Below are positions 42,037-53,422 of a stretch of DNA of 64,000 nt, piece after piece. The notes beneath the pieces were generated by a model. It worked only from the letters and a program-made list of their open reading frames with translations. It had not been told where the DNA came from and ran no database searches. Every line of letters begins with the position of its first letter. Position 1 is the stretch's first letter. The position numbers were made by a program, and so were the translations under genes. Origin of the DNA: Azospirillum brasilense (GTDB lineage: Bacteria; Pseudomonadota; Alphaproteobacteria; Azospirillales; Azospirillaceae); the NCBI RefSeq assembly GCF_022023855.1, contig NZ_CP059449.1, forward strand, positions 854,501-918,500, in the 5' to 3' direction.

Positions 42037-42288
42037 CAATGGCCTCCCTCGCGCGTGTCTCACGGACGACTCCTTACCTCTTTGGAATGGAGCGCGTCAG
42101 TGACGGCCATCACAGCACGGCCGTTCCAGCACAGCCGTCACAGCAGCGCTCCCAGTTGGATCATGCAGGAAACAGACGGCAGCCTCTTTTGGTGTGCCGC
42201 GTGCGAATTATCCTCTTTCCCGTTATAGTCGGGACGCCGCACGGTTCGTCGCACCCCTAGCATCCCTGGGAAGGCTCACGTTTTGTCG

Positions 42289-45090
42289 ATGCTCTCCACC
42301 CGCGCCGCCTCCGCCGACGCGTCCGACGCCAAGGACGCCGGCACCGCCAACATCCCCAACAAGCGCGCGATCCTGTCCCGGCGCAAGCTGGCGGAGGATC
42401 TGGAGAAGCTGGTGGCGGAGCATGGGACCGGCGACAAGCTGCGCCCCGCCCTGATCGCCCGACTGCGCGGCGCGCTGAACGACGGGCGGGCGGAGGTGCG
42501 CGCCCGCTTCGAGGCCAAGGGATCGGGTGAGGACTGCGTGCGGCAGAACTGCTACCTCGCCGACGGGGTGGTGCGTTCGCTGGCCGACCTCACGGTCACC
42601 CACATCTTCCCCTCGCCCAACCCGACCTCCGGCGAGGTGTTCGACATCGTCGCCACCGGCGGCTATGGCCGGGGCGAGCTGGCCCCCTTCTCCGACATCG
42701 ACCTGCTGTTCCTGCTGCCCTACAAGCGCACCCCGCGGGTGGAGCAGGTGGTGGAGTACATGCTCTACATCCTGTGGGACCTCGGGCTGAAGGTCGGTCA
42801 CGCCGTGCGCAGCGTCGACGACTGCATCCGCCAGTCCAAGGCCGACGTGACCATCCGCACCGCCATCCTGGAATCCCGCTACCTCTGGGGCCCGCGCAAG
42901 CTGTTCACCGAGCTGCGCCGCCGCTTCGACCGCGAGGTGGTGGCCGGCACCGGGCCGGAATTCGTCGAGGCCAAGCTGGCCGAGCGCGACAACCGCCACC
43001 TGAAGCTGGGCGACAGCCGCTACGTGCTGGAACCCAACCTGAAGGACGGCAAGGGCGGCCTGCGCGACCTGCAGACGCTGTTCTGGATCGCCAAGTACCT
43101 CTACCGCGTGGAGGACGTCGACGATCTGGTCGGCAAGAAGGTGCTGCTGCCGGAGGAGGCGCAGCGCTTCGCCAAGGCGCAGAACTTCCTGTGGACCGCG
43201 CGCTGCCATCTGCATTACCTGACCGGTCGCATGGAGGACCGGATGACCTTCGACGTCCAGACGTCGATCGGCAACCGCATGGGCTACACCGACCACGCCG
43301 GGACCAAGGGCGTGGAGCGCTTCATGAAGCATTACTTCCTGGTCGCCAAGGACGTGGGCGACCTGACCCGCATCTTCTGCGCGGCGCTGGAGGCGGAATC
43401 GAAGCGCCCGCCCAAGTTCAACATCCTGCGGCTGGCCGCACTCGCCCGCCGCAAGGACGTGGACGGCTTCGTGGTGGACGGCGAGCGGCTGAACGTCCGC
43501 AACGACCGCCAGTTCAAGGACGAGCCGCTGGACATGATCCGGCTGTTCCACACCGCCCAGCAGAATGACATCGACATCCACCCCAACGCGCTGCGCGCCA
43601 TCACGCGCTCGCTGTCGGTGGTGGGGCCGAAGCTGCGCGCCGACCTGGAGGCCAACCGGCTGTTCCTGGAGATCCTGACCGGCCGCAAGGACCCGGAGAT
43701 CACGCTGCGCCGCATGAACGAGGCCGGGGTGCTGGCCCGCTTCATCCCCGACTTCGGCCGGGTGGTCGCGCAGATGCAGTACGACATGTACCACGTCTAC
43801 ACGGTGGACGAGCACACGCTGTTCGCTCTCGGCATCCTGCACAAGATCGAGATGGGCGAGCTGACCGACGAGCTGCCGCTGTCGTCGGAGGTGATCCACA
43901 AGGTGGTGTCGCGACGCGCGCTCTACGTCGCCGTGCTGCTGCACGACATCGCCAAGGGCCGCGGCGGCGACCATTCCGTCCTCGGCGCGCGGGTGGCGGA
44001 GAAGCTGTGCCCGCGGCTCGGCCTGACGGCGGAGGAGACGGAGACGGTGGCCTGGCTGGTGCGCTGGCACCTCGCCATGTCCTACACCGCCTTCAAGCGC
44101 GACCTGGAGGACGACAAGACGGTGCGCGACTTCGTCTCGCTCGTCCAGTCGCCGGAGCGGCTGCGCCTGCTGCTGGTTCTGACCGTGGCGGACATCCGGG
44201 CGGTCGGGCCGCAGCGCTGGAACAACTGGAAGGCCACGCTGCTGCGCGAGCTGTACAACCGCTCGGAGGAGGTGATGTCCGGCGGCCTGTCGGTCGAAGG
44301 GCGCGGGCGCCGCATTCAGGCCGCCCAGGCGGCGCTGCGGGCCGAGCTGTCCGACTTCGACGATGCCGATTTCGAACGGCATCTCGCGCTCGGCTACCCG
44401 GCCTACTGGCTGGCCTTCGACGCGGAGACGCTGGGCCGGCAGGCGCGGCTGGTCCGGGAGGCGCTGCGCGACGAACGGCCGCTGACCGTCAACACGCGCA
44501 TCGACCGCGGCCGGGCGATCACCGAGGTGACGATCTTCGCCACCGACCACCACGGCCTGTTCTCCCGCCTCGCCGGGGCGCTGGCGGCGGCGGGGGCGGA
44601 CATCGTCGACGCCCGCATCTTCACGATGACCAACGGCATGGCGCTGGACGTCTTCACCGTGCAGGACGCGGCGGGCGGCGGCGCCTTCGAGAGCGGCGAC
44701 AAGCTCGCCAAGCTGTCGGTGATGATCGAGAAGGTGCTGTCCGGCCAGTTGAAGCCGCTGCACGACCTGACCAAGCGCAAGGCCCCGCACGCCAGCCGCA
44801 CCCGCGTCTTCCACGTGCCGCCGCGCGTGCTGATCGACAACAACGCCTCCACCACCCACACGGTGATCGAGGTCAACGGGCGCGACCGCCCCGGCCTGCT
44901 CTACGACCTGACCCGCGCGCTGACCAACCTGACCCTGCAGATCTCGTCGGCGAAGATCTCGACCTACGGGGAGAAGGCCATCGACGTCTTCTATGTGAAG
45001 GACGTCTTCGGCCTGAAGGTCACCCACGAGAGCAAGCTGGCCCAGATCCGCGAGCGGCTGCTGCACGCGCTCGCCGATCCGGCGGGGTGA
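42289..45090 (+). CDS. glnD: Bifunctional PII uridylyltransferase/uridylyl-removing enzyme GlnD
   Basis: A 933-residue nitrogen sensor that uridylylates PII at Tyr-51 when glutamine is low and removes it when high. The nucleotidyltransferase motif 'GGYGRGELAPFSDIDLLFLL' is near residue 123. An HD phosphohydrolase with 'LLHDIAKGRGGDHS' is near 550. Two C-terminal ACT domains ('ATDHHGLFSRLAGALAAAG' near 747 and 'NGRDRPGLLYDLTRAL' near 863) bind glutamine. ATG-42289 or the upstream TTG-42283 are both possible. Its substrate GlnZ is encoded in this window; glnB is not. Confidence 0.97.
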   Translation: MLSTRAASADASDAKDAGTANIPNKRAILSRRKLAEDLEKLVAEHGTGDKLRPALIARLRGALNDGRAEVRARFEAKGSGEDCVRQNCYLADGVVRSLADLTVTHIFPSPNPTSGEVFDIVATGGYGRGELAPFSDIDLLFLLPYKRTPRVEQVVEYMLYILWDLGLKVGHAVRSVDDCIRQSKADVTIRTAILESRYLWGPRKLFTELRRRFDREVVAGTGPEFVEAKLAERDNRHLKLGDSRYVLEPNLKDGKGGLRDLQTLFWIAKYLYRVEDVDDLVGKKVLLPEEAQRFAKAQNFLWTARCHLHYLTGRMEDRMTFDVQTSIGNRMGYTDHAGTKGVERFMKHYFLVAKDVGDLTRIFCAALEAESKRPPKFNILRLAALARRKDVDGFVVDGERLNVRNDRQFKDEPLDMIRLFHTAQQNDIDIHPNALRAITRSLSVVGPKLRADLEANRLFLEILTGRKDPEITLRRMNEAGVLARFIPDFGRVVAQMQYDMYHVYTVDEHTLFALGILHKIEMGELTDELPLSSEVIHKVVSRRALYVAVLLHDIAKGRGGDHSVLGARVAEKLCPRLGLTAEETETVAWLVRWHLAMSYTAFKRDLEDDKTVRDFVSLVQSPERLRLLLVLTVADIRAVGPQRWNNWKATLLRELYNRSEEVMSGGLSVEGRGRRIQAAQAALRAELSDFDDADFERHLALGYPAYWLAFDAETLGRQARLVREALRDERPLTVNTRIDRGRAITEVTIFATDHHGLFSRLAGALAAAGADIVDARIFTMTNGMALDVFTVQDAAGGGAFESGDKLAKLSVMIEKVLSGQLKPLHDLTKRKAPHASRTRVFHVPPRVLIDNNASTTHTVIEVNGRDRPGLLYDLTRALTNLTLQISSAKISTYGEKAIDVFYVKDVFGLKVTHESKLAQIRERLLHALADPAG

Positions 45091-45112: not shown

Positions 45113-45691
45113 TCAGGACAGTTGGTCCTCCACCCAGCCGTCGATCACTTCGGCGGCCAGACCGGCCAGCACGCCCGTCGCCATGCCGGCGGCGTAGTCG
45201 GACGCCCAGTGCCGTTCGGTGGCGAGGCTCGACCAGCCCACCGCCGCGGCGAAGCCCAGGCTGACCATGGTCGCCGAGGACAGGCCGCGGTTCAGCCCGA
45301 CCGCCGTGGTCAGCGCTGACATGTTGATGGCGTGGCCGGAGGGGAAGGAGGCGTGCTTGCCGTCGGCCTTGCCCCAGCGGCTGGGGTCGCGGCCCTCGTT
45401 CGGGCGGGCGCGGCAGACGACGCGCTTGATCCCCTTGCCGGCCACCGTCCCCAGCGCGATGGCGAGCAACCCCTGTCGGGCGAGGCGCGACCAGCCCGGC
45501 TTATTCATGCCCAGCCCGGCGGCCCACAGCGCCCCCAGCGCCGGCATCAGCACCATGCGGGAGCTGGGCACCTGGAGCCCGTCGCGCAGAGCCGGCACCT
45601 CCGCGCCCAGGGCGACGGCCTTGCGGCGGGCGGTTCCGTCCAGCACGTTCACGCCGTCCAGAACGCGGTCCGTGAAACCCTCGTCGCTCAT
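45113..45691 (-). CDS. PAP2-family membrane phosphatase
   Basis: A 192-residue phosphatidic-acid-phosphatase-type protein. The three signature blocks are 'KRVVCRARPNEG', 'ASFPSGHAINMSALTTAVG' and 'SLATERHWASDYAAG' (the usual KxxxxxxRP...PSGH...SRxxxxxHxxxD, with Thr-Glu-Arg in the third). It likely dephosphorylates a lipid phosphate at the membrane. Start Met-45691; the in-frame stretch upstream lies over the iteron region and is not coding. Its promoter must overlap the RepA origin, so RepA could affect it. Confidence 0.82.
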   Translation of the reverse strand: MSDEGFTDRVLDGVNVLDGTARRKAVALGAEVPALRDGLQVPSSRMVLMPALGALWAAGLGMNKPGWSRLARQGLLAIALGTVAGKGIKRVVCRARPNEGRDPSRWGKADGKHASFPSGHAINMSALTTAVGLNRGLSSATMVSLGFAAAVGWSSLATERHWASDYAAGMATGVLAGLAAEVIDGWVEDQLS

Positions 45692-45813
45692 CTCGCGGAT
45701 CTCCCAAAGCACGCCCCCAATCACCGCGGAGGCCAAGCGTAAACAGCCGCGCTGGCGTTTCGTGCCCGCATGGCCCCGCAAGGCAGAAGTGCCCGGCGCG
45801 GAGGGGCGCCGCC

Positions 45814-46179
45814 TTGGCAATCGCCGACCATGCCGCTTCCCCTCACCCGCCGAGGAGAGGGAGGAGTCGGCGATTGCCAAACCGGCCCACCGTGGCGCCT
45901 TGGCAATCGCCGACCGCCGGCCCAGACATCGGCCAGACATCGCCAAGATCACCCATGAAATCCCGAGTCGCGACTCGCCCGCTCCACTCCGCCTTGGCAA
46001 TCGCCGACCAATGCCCGAGTCGTCCCGAGTCACCGATGATTCCCACACGGTCCCTTGGCGAACGCCGACGAGTCTTCTGGCAATCGCCGACGCACCCCCG
46101 AGTCGTCCCCAGGCAATCGCCGACCTAGCAAATAGACTCCAGCAATTAGGTCTCAATTAGCCTCGTCGGCGATCGCCAA
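45814..46179. other. Iteron-containing replication origin upstream of repA
   Basis: Eight copies of a 15-bp iteron, consensus TTGGCAATCGCCGAC: 45814 (+), 45866 (-), 45900 (+), 45994 (+), 46055 (+, two changes), 46077 (+), 46110 (+), 46165 (-, one change). Copies at 46055, 46077 and 46110 start 22 and 33 bases apart, so they lie on one helix face. An AT-rich 35-bp segment with two CAATTAG direct repeats (46143, 46154) lies between the iterons and repA and is a good unwinding candidate. Nine GANTC sites lie in 45965-46187. A second motif, CCCGAGTCGTCCC, recurs at 46014 and 46097. No DnaA box was seen. Confidence 0.8.
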
Positions 46180-46234
46180 ATGGACTCTCCGGGCGGTGCA
46201 TGATCGACTGCAGGCAGAATGGACGGGGGGACCT

Positions 46235-47167
46235 ATGGGCGACGTGCACCAACTCATCATGACGCATGGCCGGCGCGAGGCACGGAACCTCGTGGACCCG
46301 AAGCGGGCCAGCGTCGTCGATGTCGCGGCGGCGGTGCTGGAGGACGAGTCCAACGCGCTGGGCATCACCTACTCCGGCTTCTGCCTGACCAGCCTGCCCC
46401 ACCGGAAGCTGGCGCCGGACGCCGAATGGCGCCGCGACCAGGGCCGCGTCACCCTGCTGGTGGAACCGGGCAAGGAGCGCAAGCGAGACGGCAGCCTGAT
46501 GCCGGTCGGCGTCCCCTACGGCGCCAAGGCGCGGCTGATCCTGCTCTATCTCCAGACCCGCGCCATCCAGGACAACAGCCGCGAGATCGAGCTGGGCCGC
46601 TCGATGAACGACTGGCTCGACCGCATGGGCGTCTCGGCCGGCGGGTCCACCTACAAGGCGGTGCAGGAGCAGGCGACCCGCATCAACCTGTGCCGCCTGA
46701 CCTTCTTCTGGGACAAGGATGGGGCCGAGGGCTTCGCCAAGGAGAACATCGTCAACGGCGGCATCCGCCTGCGCGACGACGACGGCCAGGGCACCCTGTG
46801 GCGCGAGACGGTGCAACTGTCGGAAACCTTCTTCGCCGCGCTGAAGCGCTCCCCTGTCCCGATCTGGGAGCCGGCGATCCGCCACATCGGCGGCTGCTCG
46901 ATGGCGATCGACGTCTATGTCTGGCTGGCCTACCGGCTGCATGTGCTGCGCGACCCGATTCCGGTGACCTGGAAGGCGCTCTTCACCCAGTTCGGCGGCG
47001 GCTACAAGGAGCTGAAGCACTTCAAGCCGGAGTTCCGCGTGGCGCTTGATCTGGCGCTGGCCGTCTACGAGGCGGCGCGGGTGGAGTTCTCCGACACCGG
47101 CGTCCTGCTCTACCCCTCGCCCCCGCCGATTCCGGAGCGCAAGATCCTCCCCGCCGCGCGCGGGTGA
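46235..47167 (+). CDS. repA: Plasmid-type replication initiator RepA
   Basis: A 310-residue protein of the RepA_C 'plasmid encoded RepA' family. Diagnostic stretches are 'LPHRKLAPDAEWRRDQGRVT', 'VPYGAKARLILLYLQTRAI', 'SREIELGRSMNDWLDRMG', 'ATRINLCRLTFFWD' and 'PIWEPAIRHIGGCSMAIDVY'. These initiators bind iterons and open the origin; two winged-helix regions are expected. ATG-46235 with GGGGGG 6 bases upstream is preferred over GTG-46196. It is flanked on both sides by matching iterons. No parA/parB, toxin-antitoxin or relaxase genes are beside it. Confidence 0.9.
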   Translation: MGDVHQLIMTHGRREARNLVDPKRASVVDVAAAVLEDESNALGITYSGFCLTSLPHRKLAPDAEWRRDQGRVTLLVEPGKERKRDGSLMPVGVPYGAKARLILLYLQTRAIQDNSREIELGRSMNDWLDRMGVSAGGSTYKAVQEQATRINLCRLTFFWDKDGAEGFAKENIVNGGIRLRDDDGQGTLWRETVQLSETFFAALKRSPVPIWEPAIRHIGGCSMAIDVYVWLAYRLHVLRDPIPVTWKALFTQFGGGYKELKHFKPEFRVALDLALAVYEAARVEFSDTGVLLYPSPPPIPERKILPAARG

Positions 47168-47182
47168 GTCGGCGGCAGGCAA

Positions 47183-47234
47183 GTCGGCGATTGCCAACCC
47201 ACCCGGCTCCGGAATCGGAGTCGGCGATTGCCAG
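47183..47234. other. Two downstream iterons of the RepA origin
   Basis: GTCGGCGATTGCCAA at 47183 and GTCGGCGATTGCCAG at 47220 (both minus orientation, starts 37 apart) begin 16 bases after the repA stop. Four GANTC sites (47166, 47212, 47218, 47234) lie among them. Confidence 0.8.
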
Positions 47235-47257
47235 AGTCCCAGCGGCCGAGGCGACGC

Positions 47258-47659
47258 CTACCCCGCCTTGAAGGCCTGCACGTTGACGCCTTCCCGCGTG
47301 TAGACCTGCATCGGGCGGCAGCTCTCGTCCATCTTGACGATGAGGACGCCGGCCTTGTCGCGCGGATAGAGCCACATCTCGTACTGCGACACCCGCGCGC
47401 TCGGCCCGGTGCGCGCTTCGCTGTAGATCGCGGCCCGGAACTGCCCGACCGGAATCCCCTCCCCGGCCAGAACGGAGGCGACGGGACGGTTGCAGGGTCC
47501 CTTCACCATGCCATCCAACGCCGCCACCGCTCCAGGCGCGGGCTCCGCGGTGCGCGGCGGCCCCAGCGAGGCGCAGGCGCCGAGGCCGAGAAGGCCGGCG
47601 CACAGGATTATCCCGGCGGTCCTGCGATTGCGCGAACGGCGTCCGGCGTGGCGATGCAT
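47258..47659 (-). CDS. Small lipoprotein, function unknown
   Basis: A 133-residue protein with a lipoprotein signal (basic n-region with HRHAGRRSRNRR, hydrophobic core, lipobox LGAC with Cys-29). The mature part contains two Cys that could pair ('VKGPCNRPV', 'KMDESCRPM') and a compact mixed alpha/beta pattern. No family recognised. It converges with repA across the two downstream iterons. Confidence 0.65.
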   Translation of the reverse strand: MHRHAGRRSRNRRTAGIILCAGLLGLGACASLGPPRTAEPAPGAVAALDGMVKGPCNRPVASVLAGEGIPVGQFRAAIYSEARTGPSARVSQYEMWLYPRDKAGVLIVKMDESCRPMQVYTREGVNVQAFKAG

Positions 47660-47738
47660 CGCGGTCTCCCTGCCCAATGGCGGTGTTCGGTTACCTCTGC
47701 GCAAACACGGCAGCGGGGAAAAAGGTTCGTGCCGGCCC

Positions 47739-47753
47739 TTGGCAATCGCCGAC
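47739..47753 (+). other. Isolated iteron between the lipoprotein and binding-protein genes
   Basis: An exact TTGGCAATCGCCGAC copy 570 bases beyond repA, followed by GANTC sites at 47760 and 47776. It extends the origin's repeat field beyond one gene. Confidence 0.75.
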
Positions 47754-47794
47754 CATCGAGAATCAGGCGGGCCGAGAATCGGACGGGCAGAAAA

Positions 47795-51713: not shown

Positions 51714-51847
51714 TATGCGCCAGCCGACTTCCCCCTTCAATGGACAAACCGGCGACCAATGATACAGGAAATAGAGAGCAATCAAACTTTTGCGGGTTCT
51801 TTGGTACCGCCGCCGCAAGGATCGGCGCCGAACGGGACGGTCGGCGG

Positions 51848-53422
51848 ATGAGTTTCGCCCGCGCCATCGCAACCGTCGGCAGCCTGACGCTGCTGAGCCG
51901 GCTGGCCGGCTTCGCCCGCGACATTCTGACCGCGGCGGTGCTCGGCGCCGGGCCGGTGGCCGACGCCTTCTTCGTGGCGCTGAAACTGCCCAACTTCTTC
52001 CGCCGCCTGTTCGCGGAGGGGGCCTTCAGCGTCGCCTTCGTCCCGCTGTTCGCGGCGGAGCTTCAGCGCAACGGCCGCGCCGCCGCGGTGGCCTTCGCCG
52101 AGCAGGCGCTGGCGATCCTGCTGACGGTGCTGCTGCCCTTCACCGCCCTGGCCATCCTGGGGATGCCCGCGCTGATGCACGTCCTGGCGCCGGGCTTCGT
52201 CGACGAGCCGGCGAAGTTCGCGCTGGCCGTCGACATGGCGCGGCTGACCTTTCCCTATCTGACGCTGATTTCGCTGGTGGCGCTGCTGGGCGGCGTGCTG
52301 AACGCGCTGGACCGCTTCGGCCCCTTCGCCGCCGCCCCCATCGCCTTCAACCTGACGCTGATCGCCGCCTTGCTGACCGCGCCGCGGCTGGGGCTGGAGC
52401 CGGGGCGGGCGATGGCCGCGGCGGTGACGCTGTCGGGCGTGGTGCAGCTGGTCTGGATGGGATGGGCCTGCCGGGCGGCGGGGGTGACGCTGCGCCTGAC
52501 CCTGCCGCGGATGACCGAGGGGATGCGCCGCCTGTTCCGGCTGGTCGGGCCGGGGGCCATCGGCGCCGGGGTCATGCAGATCAACCTGTTCCTGAACGTC
52601 GTACTGGCCTCGCTGCTGCCGTCGGGGGCGGTGTCCTTCCTCTATTACGCCGACCGGCTGAACCAGATGCCGCTGGGCGTCATCGGCATCGCCATCGGCA
52701 CCGCGCTCTTGCCCGTGCTCGCCCGCCACGCCGCGGCGGGGGACGAGCGGATGGTCCGCCACTACCTCAGCCGCGCTTTGGAATTCAGCCTGCTGCTCGG
52801 CCTGCCGGCCGCGGTGGCGCTGGGGGTGGCCGGGGCGCCCATCGTCTCGGTGCTGTTCGAGCGCGGCGCCTTCGGCCCGGCGGAGGCGCAGGCGACGGCC
52901 TGGGCGCTGGGCGCCTACGCAATTGGCATCCCCGCCCATGTGATCGTCAAGGCGCTGAACGCCGCCTTCTTCGCCCGCCAGGACACGGCGACCCCGGTGC
53001 GCGTCGCCGTGGTGGTGACGGTGGCCAACCTGGCGCTGGGCATCGCGCTGATGCCGGTGTTGGGGCATGTGGGGATCGCGCTGGCGACGGGGCTGACCGC
53101 CTGGTTGAACCTCGCCCTGCTGGCCCACGCGCTACGCCGCCGCGGATTCCTGCAGCTGGACGGGCGCTTCCTCGGCCGCGCGCCGCGCATCGCCGCGGCG
53201 GCGCTGGGAATGGGGGCGGCGCTGCTGGCCGGCGCGTCGGCCTTGGCGCCGTGGCTGGAGGCGGCGTCCACTCTGGTCCGCTTCGGCGCGCTGGCCCTGC
53301 TGGTCGGCGGCGGCGTGGCGGTGTTCGGGACGCTGGCGCAGCTGACCGGCGCCGCTGACCTTGCCGACCTGAAGGGCTTCCTGCGCAAGGACACTCCGGA
53401 ATTGGAGCCGCCCGTGTCTTGA
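51848..53422 (+). CDS. murJ: Lipid II flippase MurJ
   Basis: A 524-residue polytopic MOP-superfamily protein with about fourteen helices. '[20 protein letters not shown]' and '[20 protein letters not shown]' carry the conserved Arg residues; '[20 protein letters not shown]' is typical of MurJ/MviN. It moves lipid-linked peptidoglycan precursors across the inner membrane. It is followed by trpS after 61 bases. Start Met-51848; an upstream Met-51740 would add 36 residues not seen in the family. Confidence 0.95.

Follow-up and report, generated by a model that had tools for sequence, protein, structure and literature searches.

In Agrobacterium tumefaciens C58, a dicentric chromosome combines the DnaA-type origin ori1 with a repABC origin that has its own partition genes. 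This plasmid-type origin contains GANTC sites and its control by CcrM has been demonstrated; the second origin appears to be essential and the dicentric form is found in many laboratory strains (PMC11514494). The Vibrio cholerae strains NSCV1 and NSCV2 carry oriC and the plasmid-type ori2 on a single chromosome, ori2 being active in one strain and silent in the other (PMC6284228). In Vibrio, the short site crtS exerts its effect on a chromid, and the initiator gene of that chromid lies elsewhere (PMC13342612, PMC7858055). According to a review, large alphaproteobacterial replicons usually depend on repABC and iteron origins occur there only in small plasmids (PMC6090056). Here we describe a repA gene with iterons, i.e. 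a plasmid-type replication module, on a chromosome of Azospirillum brasilense. The window, the whole stretch of 64 kb that was analysed, corresponds to C1:854501-918500 of a multipartite genome (G000; 7.39 Mb in 8 contigs, C1 comprising 2,810,413 bases). Other genomes are likewise designated by G and RepA loci by L.

In our reading, held with moderate confidence, the repA locus is a complete plasmid-type RepA/iteron origin unit that has been domesticated and that is probably a CcrM-gated origin in an accessory or reserve role, the main origin being another. As in C58, a DnaA-type and a plasmid-type origin stand together on one alphaproteobacterial chromosome, with GANTC sites at the plasmid-type origin; unlike the repABC origin of C58, the Azospirillum unit is of the RepA_C/iteron type, has no ParA motif nearby, is fixed across species amid core genes and is only presumed to fire (PMC11514494). 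It shares with NSCV1 and NSCV2 the combination of oriC and a plasmid-type origin, and their initiator RctB is the nearest solved fold to RepA; those strains are natural single-strain exceptions, whereas the Azospirillum module is widespread in the genus and lies near oriC (PMC6284228). With crtS it has in common that a multipartite genome carries on its main chromosome a site related to an initiator, but gene and iterons are found together and no trans target was found (PMC13342612, PMC7858055). In the excerpted open-licence literature on Azospirillum chromosomal RepA, two-origin chromosomes or RepA chromosomes, we found no description of the module.

RepA belongs to the RepA_C family (PF04796, 81.8 bits, cut-off 26). 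A sequence search of the PDB gave no relative (two matches, E 0.23 and 0.74), and NCBIfam no family at E 0.01. An AlphaFold model built from 13 sequences (mean predicted local distance difference test score 70.3) has domains 2-3 of RctB as its top structural match (Z 15.4, 233 residues, root-mean-square deviation 3.6; Foldseek E 3.1e-7), followed by RepE54 (Z about 11) and Rep complexes with iteron DNA. As modelled, RepA fits an iteron-type (RctB/RepE-like) initiator with a two winged-helix fold. Its start codon (Table 1) is probably the ATG proposed by the gene caller.

The iteron, TTGGCAATCGCCGAC, has 15 bp. Counted with at most two mismatches, all eleven copies in the window are located at repA, eight upstream and three downstream of the gene; when up to three mismatches are allowed, the window holds 16 matches, whereas 100 shuffles gave 3.3 on average and never more than 9. 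Exact TTGGCRATYGCCGAC occurs at 11 sites in the 7.39-Mb genome, 7 of them at the repA module. The offsets of -140, -118, -85 and -31 from the GTG are preserved in the window, L017-L023, L025 and L026, and in L017-L024 the downstream pair is found at about +942 to +1054 and the third downstream iteron at about +1533 to +1608. The block that separates the last upstream iteron from the one before it has a GC content of 0.42-0.45 (40-bp steps), the minimum of 45.4-48.2 kb in surroundings of about 69% GC, although not that of the window, where 135 of 63,960 40-mers have a GC content of at most 0.40. An upstream alignment of ten sequences shows the iteron cores, which are invariant, GANTC sites (several of them without any change) and the AT-rich block, which is nearly invariant, conserved amid variable DNA. 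With 2 mismatches to TTATCCACA, the GATTCCCACA element may weakly resemble a DnaA box. A core iteron spacing of 21-22, 32-33 and 54-59 bp is common to most RepA loci of the chromosomal and plasmid types (exceptions are L165, with 44 for 33, and the C2 copy L110, without the pattern), while the letters of the iterons vary between RepA types; RepA and its iterons have therefore changed together. The anatomy of an iteron-type origin, i.e. an iteron array next to the initiator gene and an AT-rich segment, is complete.

The region 45790-46240 holds ten GANTC sites, nine of which are left upstream of repA once the iterons are masked; 450-bp windows of the surrounding 368 kb contain 0.71 on average (standard deviation 0.99). 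Among 14,698 overlapping 450-bp windows of G000, the densest lie before hemE (10) and before repA (10), followed by one downstream of repA (6). The other sampled stretches of C1 have 0 of 41,702 windows with at least 7 sites, the sampling covering about half of C1. The tie between repA and hemE for the highest GANTC density in the sampled part of the chromosome is new. In G018 (15,982 windows), hemE (9) and repA (7) are densest, followed by 6 elsewhere; in G064, repA is the densest GANTC locus (10) and the hemE region is unenriched. All 28 RepA upstream regions examined contain 4-12 GANTC sites vs 0.4-1.4 expected, and the enrichment therefore goes with the origin type and is not peculiar to chromosomal copies. 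The initiator gene, the eleven iterons, the AT-rich segment and the many GANTC sites had been pointed out in a sequence-only reading of the window, and the analysis recovers each of them.

Table 1. Features of the repA module and its neighbours (positions in the window)
Feature	Position	Strand	Remarks
repA, RepA_C-family initiator	46196..47167	+	323 codons from GTG 46196; probable start ATG 46235 (310 amino acids)
Upstream iteron array	45814..46179		45814+, 45866-, 45900+, 45994+, 46055+, 46077+, 46110+, 46165-
Two downstream iterons (47183, 47220)	47183..47234	-	
Third downstream iteron	47739..47753	+	
AT-rich block between last two upstream iterons, candidate unwinding element	46119..46169		lowest GC (0.42) of 2.8-kb region
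Conserved GATTCCCACA element	46038..46047	+	invariant in 10/10 aligned sequences
Ten GANTC (candidate CcrM) sites	45864..46187		45864, 45965, 45972, 46017, 46027, 46038, 46070, 46100, 46135, 46183
PAP2-family phosphatase gene	45113-45694	-	adjoins repA module
Substrate-binding-protein (SBP) gene	from 47845	-	adjoins repA module
glnD (context)	42283..45090	+	Pfam GlnD_UR_UTase, HD, ACT
murJ (context)	51740..53422	+	Pfam MurJ, 380 bits

The immediate neighbours of the module are the PAP2-family phosphatase gene, a small open reading frame and the SBP gene. The sequence-only reading had named mutS-glnD and murJ-trpS as neighbours; glnD and murJ are borne out by Pfam, and mutS and trpS are presumed names assigned by eye. 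A scan for promoters and terminators found none, and DNA folding of 46105-46240 is unremarkable (z -1.08). A second, inverted pair of window-type iterons is found in G000 at C1:452649-452733 (sites 452649/452719; L004:1431-1515), in intergenic DNA after a histidine-kinase-like gene; judged by its letters, it is a possible RepA binding site. The exact iteron was not found on the other replicons of G000, where scattered single sites with one mismatch occur on C2, C3 and C4.

The replicon also carries a DnaA-type origin region. The gene dnaA is located at C1:1070659 (Bac_DnaA, 240.7 bits), and, of the DnaA-box clusters within 368 kb, the best one precedes hemE (7 boxes at a tolerance of two mismatches, the next best having 4). 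The only two sites of the genome within one mismatch of TGTTNCACGTGNAACA, which we take to be the parS motif, are C1:960533 and 962516. We recognised by eye, and so assume, parB, parA, gidB, gidA and mnmE (958-964 kb), dnaQ, coaE, aroE and maf (968-971 kb) and hemE (972306-973364); such a gene set around hemE is the usual alphaproteobacterial origin neighbourhood. The repA unit (C1 900.3-902.3 kb) lies 71 kb from the hemE-linked region (971.9-972.3 kb), and dnaA, the hemE-linked DnaA-box cluster and the parS-like sites are 60-170 kb from repA. The dnaA/hemE/parS set identifies the contig as the main chromosome, not a chromid, of a multipartite genome, so that an earlier caveat, a plasmid or chromid with acquired core genes, falls away; of the dnaA/oriC (hemE-linked) which had been suggested as a thing to look for, dnaA and a hemE-linked DnaA-box region are present. 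Plasmid-type replication and partition, the sole system of a chromid or plasmid, are not the sole system of C1; by anatomy, two origin units of different type stand on one replicon, as in a dicentric chromosome. Beside dnaA, four weaker matches to the Bac_DnaA profile were seen, one of them at G000 C8:21; those at C3:400980, C3:846848 and C8:2893 are equal in score and extent and may be copies of one mobile gene.

Where contigs allow the comparison, chromosomal repA genes mostly lie 71-191 kb from hemE. In 16 of the 20 genomes of the brasilense type, repA and hemE share a contig; in the other four (G006, G019, G029, G032) they are on different contigs. The distance is 71-91 kb in 12 (G000, G002, G004, G005, G007, G008, G009, G015, G036, G038, G039, G043), and is larger in G010 (157 kb, circular closing assumed), G028 (159 kb), G044 (191 kb) and G017 (290 kb). 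For the lipoferum type, the context was read for nine loci (L146-L154), seven of which are 127-190 kb from hemE (G018, G027, G031, G034, G045 and, with circular closing, G021 and G025); in G035 repA is on a separate contig and in G033 it lies 1.76 Mb from hemE on a 7.54-Mb contig with other RepAs. Among genomes assigned to this type by identity only, the distance is 108 kb in G020 and 186 kb in G037, and contigs differ in G013, G022, G024, G026 and G041. Genus g10 has seven genomes, three with one contig (G063, 128 kb; G058, 131 kb; G064, about 132 kb with circular closing) and four split. The contig G033:C1 (7,541,676 bases), on which hemE, a lipoferum-type repA and further RepA matches occur together, is either a replicon fusion or an assembly artefact.

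The three chromosomal RepA types form separate clades: in a topology test of 31 rows, a single clade of all chromosomal RepAs was rejected (AU, approximately unbiased, p 0.0017), as were brasilense with lipoferum (p 0.001) and brasilense with g10 (p 0.006), while lipoferum with g10 was not (p 0.06). The tree itself has 49 rows after 25 redundant ones were dropped; long-branch warnings apply to tree and test, and the brasilense set includes L030 of an unplaced replicon. The genes next to the lipoferum-type repA have their G000 counterparts at 577-592 and 730-736 kb, whereas for g10 the corresponding positions are 852 and 877-881 kb, and thus the surroundings differ between RepA types. The chance of three random captures on a 3-Mb circle within 190 kb of hemE is about 0.002, and within 290 kb about 0.007, as computed post hoc, under independence and without G033 and the split-contig genomes.

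A RepA match of some kind is present in 68 of the 82 genomes of the family and a window-type RepA (89-100% identity) in 20 of the 45 genomes of the genus. A first scan of relatives gave 21 RepA loci, 17 of them titled Azospirillum; within the brasilense group repA is 99-100% identical. The order mutS-glnD-PAP2-repA-SBP-HK (histidine kinase)-murJ is preserved in 8 loci (L017-L024) and in part in L025 and L026 (PAP2 to murJ) and L028 (glnD to repA), whereas L027, L029 and L030 have repA with other neighbours. The ratio of nonsynonymous to synonymous substitution (dN/dS) of repA is 0.000 (L020), 0.007 (L023), 0.007 (L024), 0.047 (L025), 0.039 (L026) and 0.109 (L028), the lowest of the compared genes in 6/6 pairs (e.g. 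repA 0.047 vs murJ 0.25, PAP2 0.36 and SBP 0.49), with mutS and glnD missing from the comparison for L025 and L026, while for L028 the genes set against repA were limited to glnD, PAP2 and a weak HK match. G000 and L020 show zero nonsynonymous changes in repA at dS 0.12, and in four lipoferum-type pairs repA dN/dS is 0.03-0.05. The same repA, which a search between glnD and murJ of related genomes had been suggested to look for, is thus found there, and loss of repA function in close relatives, named earlier as part of a refutation, is the reverse of what is seen.

The relatives of the unit are RepA_C/iteron plasmids of Azospirillum, Roseomonas, Acetobacter and others, whose initiator is related; most of the loci examined share the iteron spacing and the GANTC-rich upstream region. 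All 898 plasmid records that match RepA are below 60% identity (the search may pass over records from the genome of the window itself or from one very near to it). No ParA Walker motif was found in 23 chromosomal-type loci (L017, L020, L023-L029, L163, L164, L146-L154, L160-L162, with L018, L019, L021 and L022 left aside; L027 is from the genome of L164, and L029 is an 18.8-kb contig of an unplaced replicon), nor in L030 (78% identical, 15-kb contig of an unplaced replicon). In contrast, 13/14 other RepA loci have the motif within 4 kb, the exception being C6 of G000. The RepA_C loci on C2 and C6 of G000 carry repeats unlike the window's iterons. The C2 locus (L110, C2:1652350-1653916), on the 2.05-Mb second replicon, has a RepA_C gene 37% identical to the window's, with repeated elements and, in a 450-bp stretch upstream, 12 GANTC sites; a ParA motif lies at a distance of 1.6 kb. 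C2 is a RepA-type megareplicon in an alphaproteobacterium.

The GC skew of the 64-kb window alone is too weak to be informative. The sampled skew of C1 has a flat low over about 0.83-1.14 Mb, its formal minimum falling in the 1.09-Mb stretch, and peaks near 2.36-2.40 Mb; eight-mers learned outside the region have their cumulative minimum at 935 kb. Likelihood places the polarity switch of G000 at 935 kb (918-936) with 28 motifs, repA being 4.4 worse, at 943 kb (837-958) with GGGCAGGG, repA being 2.9 worse, and at 943 kb (932-953) with GGGNAGGG and gene strand as covariate, repA being 6.6 and hemE 7.6 worse; fourfold-site skew gives no resolution (784-1109 kb). Bootstraps of the minimum are far wider, spanning 895-944 kb (28 motifs), 773-938 kb, and 773-953 kb (GGGNAGGG), and since they include 901 kb, repA is still compatible as minimum in G000. 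In G018 the motif switch is at 2511 kb (2503-2518; repA 9.8, hemE 16.2 worse), polarity is mixed at about 2420-2580 kb (28 forward, 30 reverse), and fourfold-site skew points to 2597 kb (2567-2634; repA 5.6, hemE, at 2609 kb, 2.3 worse). With GGGCAGGG, G010 switches at 83 kb (77-87) among the matches listed; hemE lies at 115 kb and is 9.3 worse, while repA, if the contig is circular, would be at -41 kb, beyond the stretch that the list covers and about 124 kb from the switch. With the same motif G021 switches at 93 kb (52-95; hemE, at about 0, 10.1 and repA, at 179 kb, 7.2 worse). In G005, the reverse motif, the only one used, is dense to 55.7 kb and then sparse (repA 18, hemE 91 kb). In G064, of the other genus, the motif switch (98-185 kb) lies outside the interval between repA (-93 kb) and hemE (39 kb), and the fourfold-skew optimum, -96 kb, is 2.5 kb from repA with an interval spanning nearly the whole stretch. 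In G014, whose hemE contig has no RepA match, forward motifs are dense from about 727 kb among the matches listed, hemE being at 697 kb; reverse matches were listed up to 672 kb.

The best motif switch is thus not at repA in the five genomes tested, and in all four Azospirillum genomes (G000, G018, G010 if circular, G021) it falls in the stretch from repA to hemE and coincides with neither gene. Long-term fork initiation is probably not at repA. A cumulative minimum at about 46 kb of the window, which had been suggested as a check, is compatible with the G000 bootstrap; the best switch lies elsewhere. The displacement from hemE means either that initiation is not at hemE or that the asymmetry lags. 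Simultaneous firing of both origins as its cause was rejected, as it predicts forks converging between them and the reverse was observed. The switch regions themselves lie at C1:938-943 kb in G000, about 30 kb from hemE on the parAB side, and at C1 77-87 kb in G010; no DnaA-box cluster was seen in that of G000.

We propose that RepA, by its RctB/RepE-like winged-helix fold, would bind the 15-bp iterons and repress its own gene via the iteron next to the start, and that active RepA would melt the AT-rich block and start replication. The GANTC cluster would link this origin with the cell cycle, in that a fork started in the oriC region would soon pass repA and leave the cluster hemimethylated, and hemimethylation would block or time RepA firing until CcrM acts. 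Gated by fork passage, the repA unit would therefore be an accessory or reserve origin, not the main one, in the origin-proximal zone beside the hemE-linked DnaA-box region. The earlier idea of an integrated origin working beside a DnaA-type oriC fits as regards a maintained unit beside such a region; its working is what we infer. Several observations weigh against our reading. No clear fork start is seen at repA (6.6 in G000 and 9.8 in G018 with GGGNAGGG, and 7.2 in G021 with GGGCAGGG, worse than the best switch). In G014, hemE is on C1 and RepA matches occur only on C2 and C4, so not every lineage requires the module. RepA autoregulation alone could account for the conserved sequence. Plasmid-type RepA loci are GANTC-enriched too, which may make the enrichment a plasmid inheritance, and some control palindromes contained in iterons are also frequent, e.g. 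TGNCA (10) in L030 and GTNAC (8) in L155-L157.

It is conceivable, if rather unlikely, that the chromosomal RepA is a regulator without initiation, which titrates RepA or marks fork passage and thereby times or limits other replicons in the manner of crtS, or which excludes same-type plasmids by incompatibility. The strand asymmetry without a clear start at repA, the multipartite genome with its 8 contigs, the fold match to RctB, which has in crtS a chromosomal partner site of this kind, and the inverted iteron pair at C1:452649/452719 are in keeping with such a role; that none of the 898 plasmid records has a RepA of at least 60% identity fits exclusion and equally a simply chromosomal type. 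However, no trans target is visible, as the exact iteron was found on no other replicon and the other RepA_C loci of G000 have different repeats, and a regulator would not need an AT-rich block and origin spacing. We consider it improbable that both origins are used in different cells or conditions, with the evolutionary strand switch averaging between them: the switches between repA and hemE in 4/4 Azospirillum genomes and the mixed polarity of G018 would agree with this, but uniform mixing is predicted and G000, G010 and G021 show a divergence point, G014 may show a like displacement from hemE among the matches listed, and the best motif switch of G064 is outside the interval.

That RepA is the main initiator of the chromosome, in place of a DnaA-type oriC, had been raised by the sequence-only reading and appears very improbable. 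It could appeal to the G000 bootstrap, which includes repA (901 kb) and not hemE (972 kb), to the broad skew minimum, to the mixed or repA-side polarity of the zone next to repA in G018 and G021, to the rejection of hemE, too, as motif switch and to the G064 optimum close to repA, with its wide interval. Against it stand the DnaA boxes at hemE, dnaA and the only two parS-like sites on the same replicon, the likelihood switch 42 kb (G000) and about 124 kb (G010 if circular) from repA, the fourfold-site skew of G018, whose interval holds hemE and for which repA is 5.6 worse, and the RepA-free hemE contig of G014. The notion of a decaying relic of an integrated plasmid, also considered earlier, is refuted by the conservation: no ParA motif is found nearby, as a relic might have it, but selection on repA in the G000-L020 and lipoferum-type pairs, the conserved iterons and AT-rich block, and the presence of RepA in 20/45 genus genomes contradict decay.

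Beyond the single locus, we suggest, quite tentatively, that different RepA/iteron origins may have been captured time and again by main chromosomes of the Azospirillaceae and retained close to the DnaA-type oriC, each as a stable second origin gated by CcrM that would fire in normal or stress conditions; the location near oriC would have been selected since activity of an additional origin anywhere else would do harm. The RepA/iteron unit, under selection on a main chromosome, departs from the picture of repABC on large replicons and iterons on small ones (PMC6090056). It is a natural example, of long standing, of one bacterial chromosome with two origin types, and it offers a test of how a cell keeps a second origin quiet or useful, and whether this is done via CcrM methylation.

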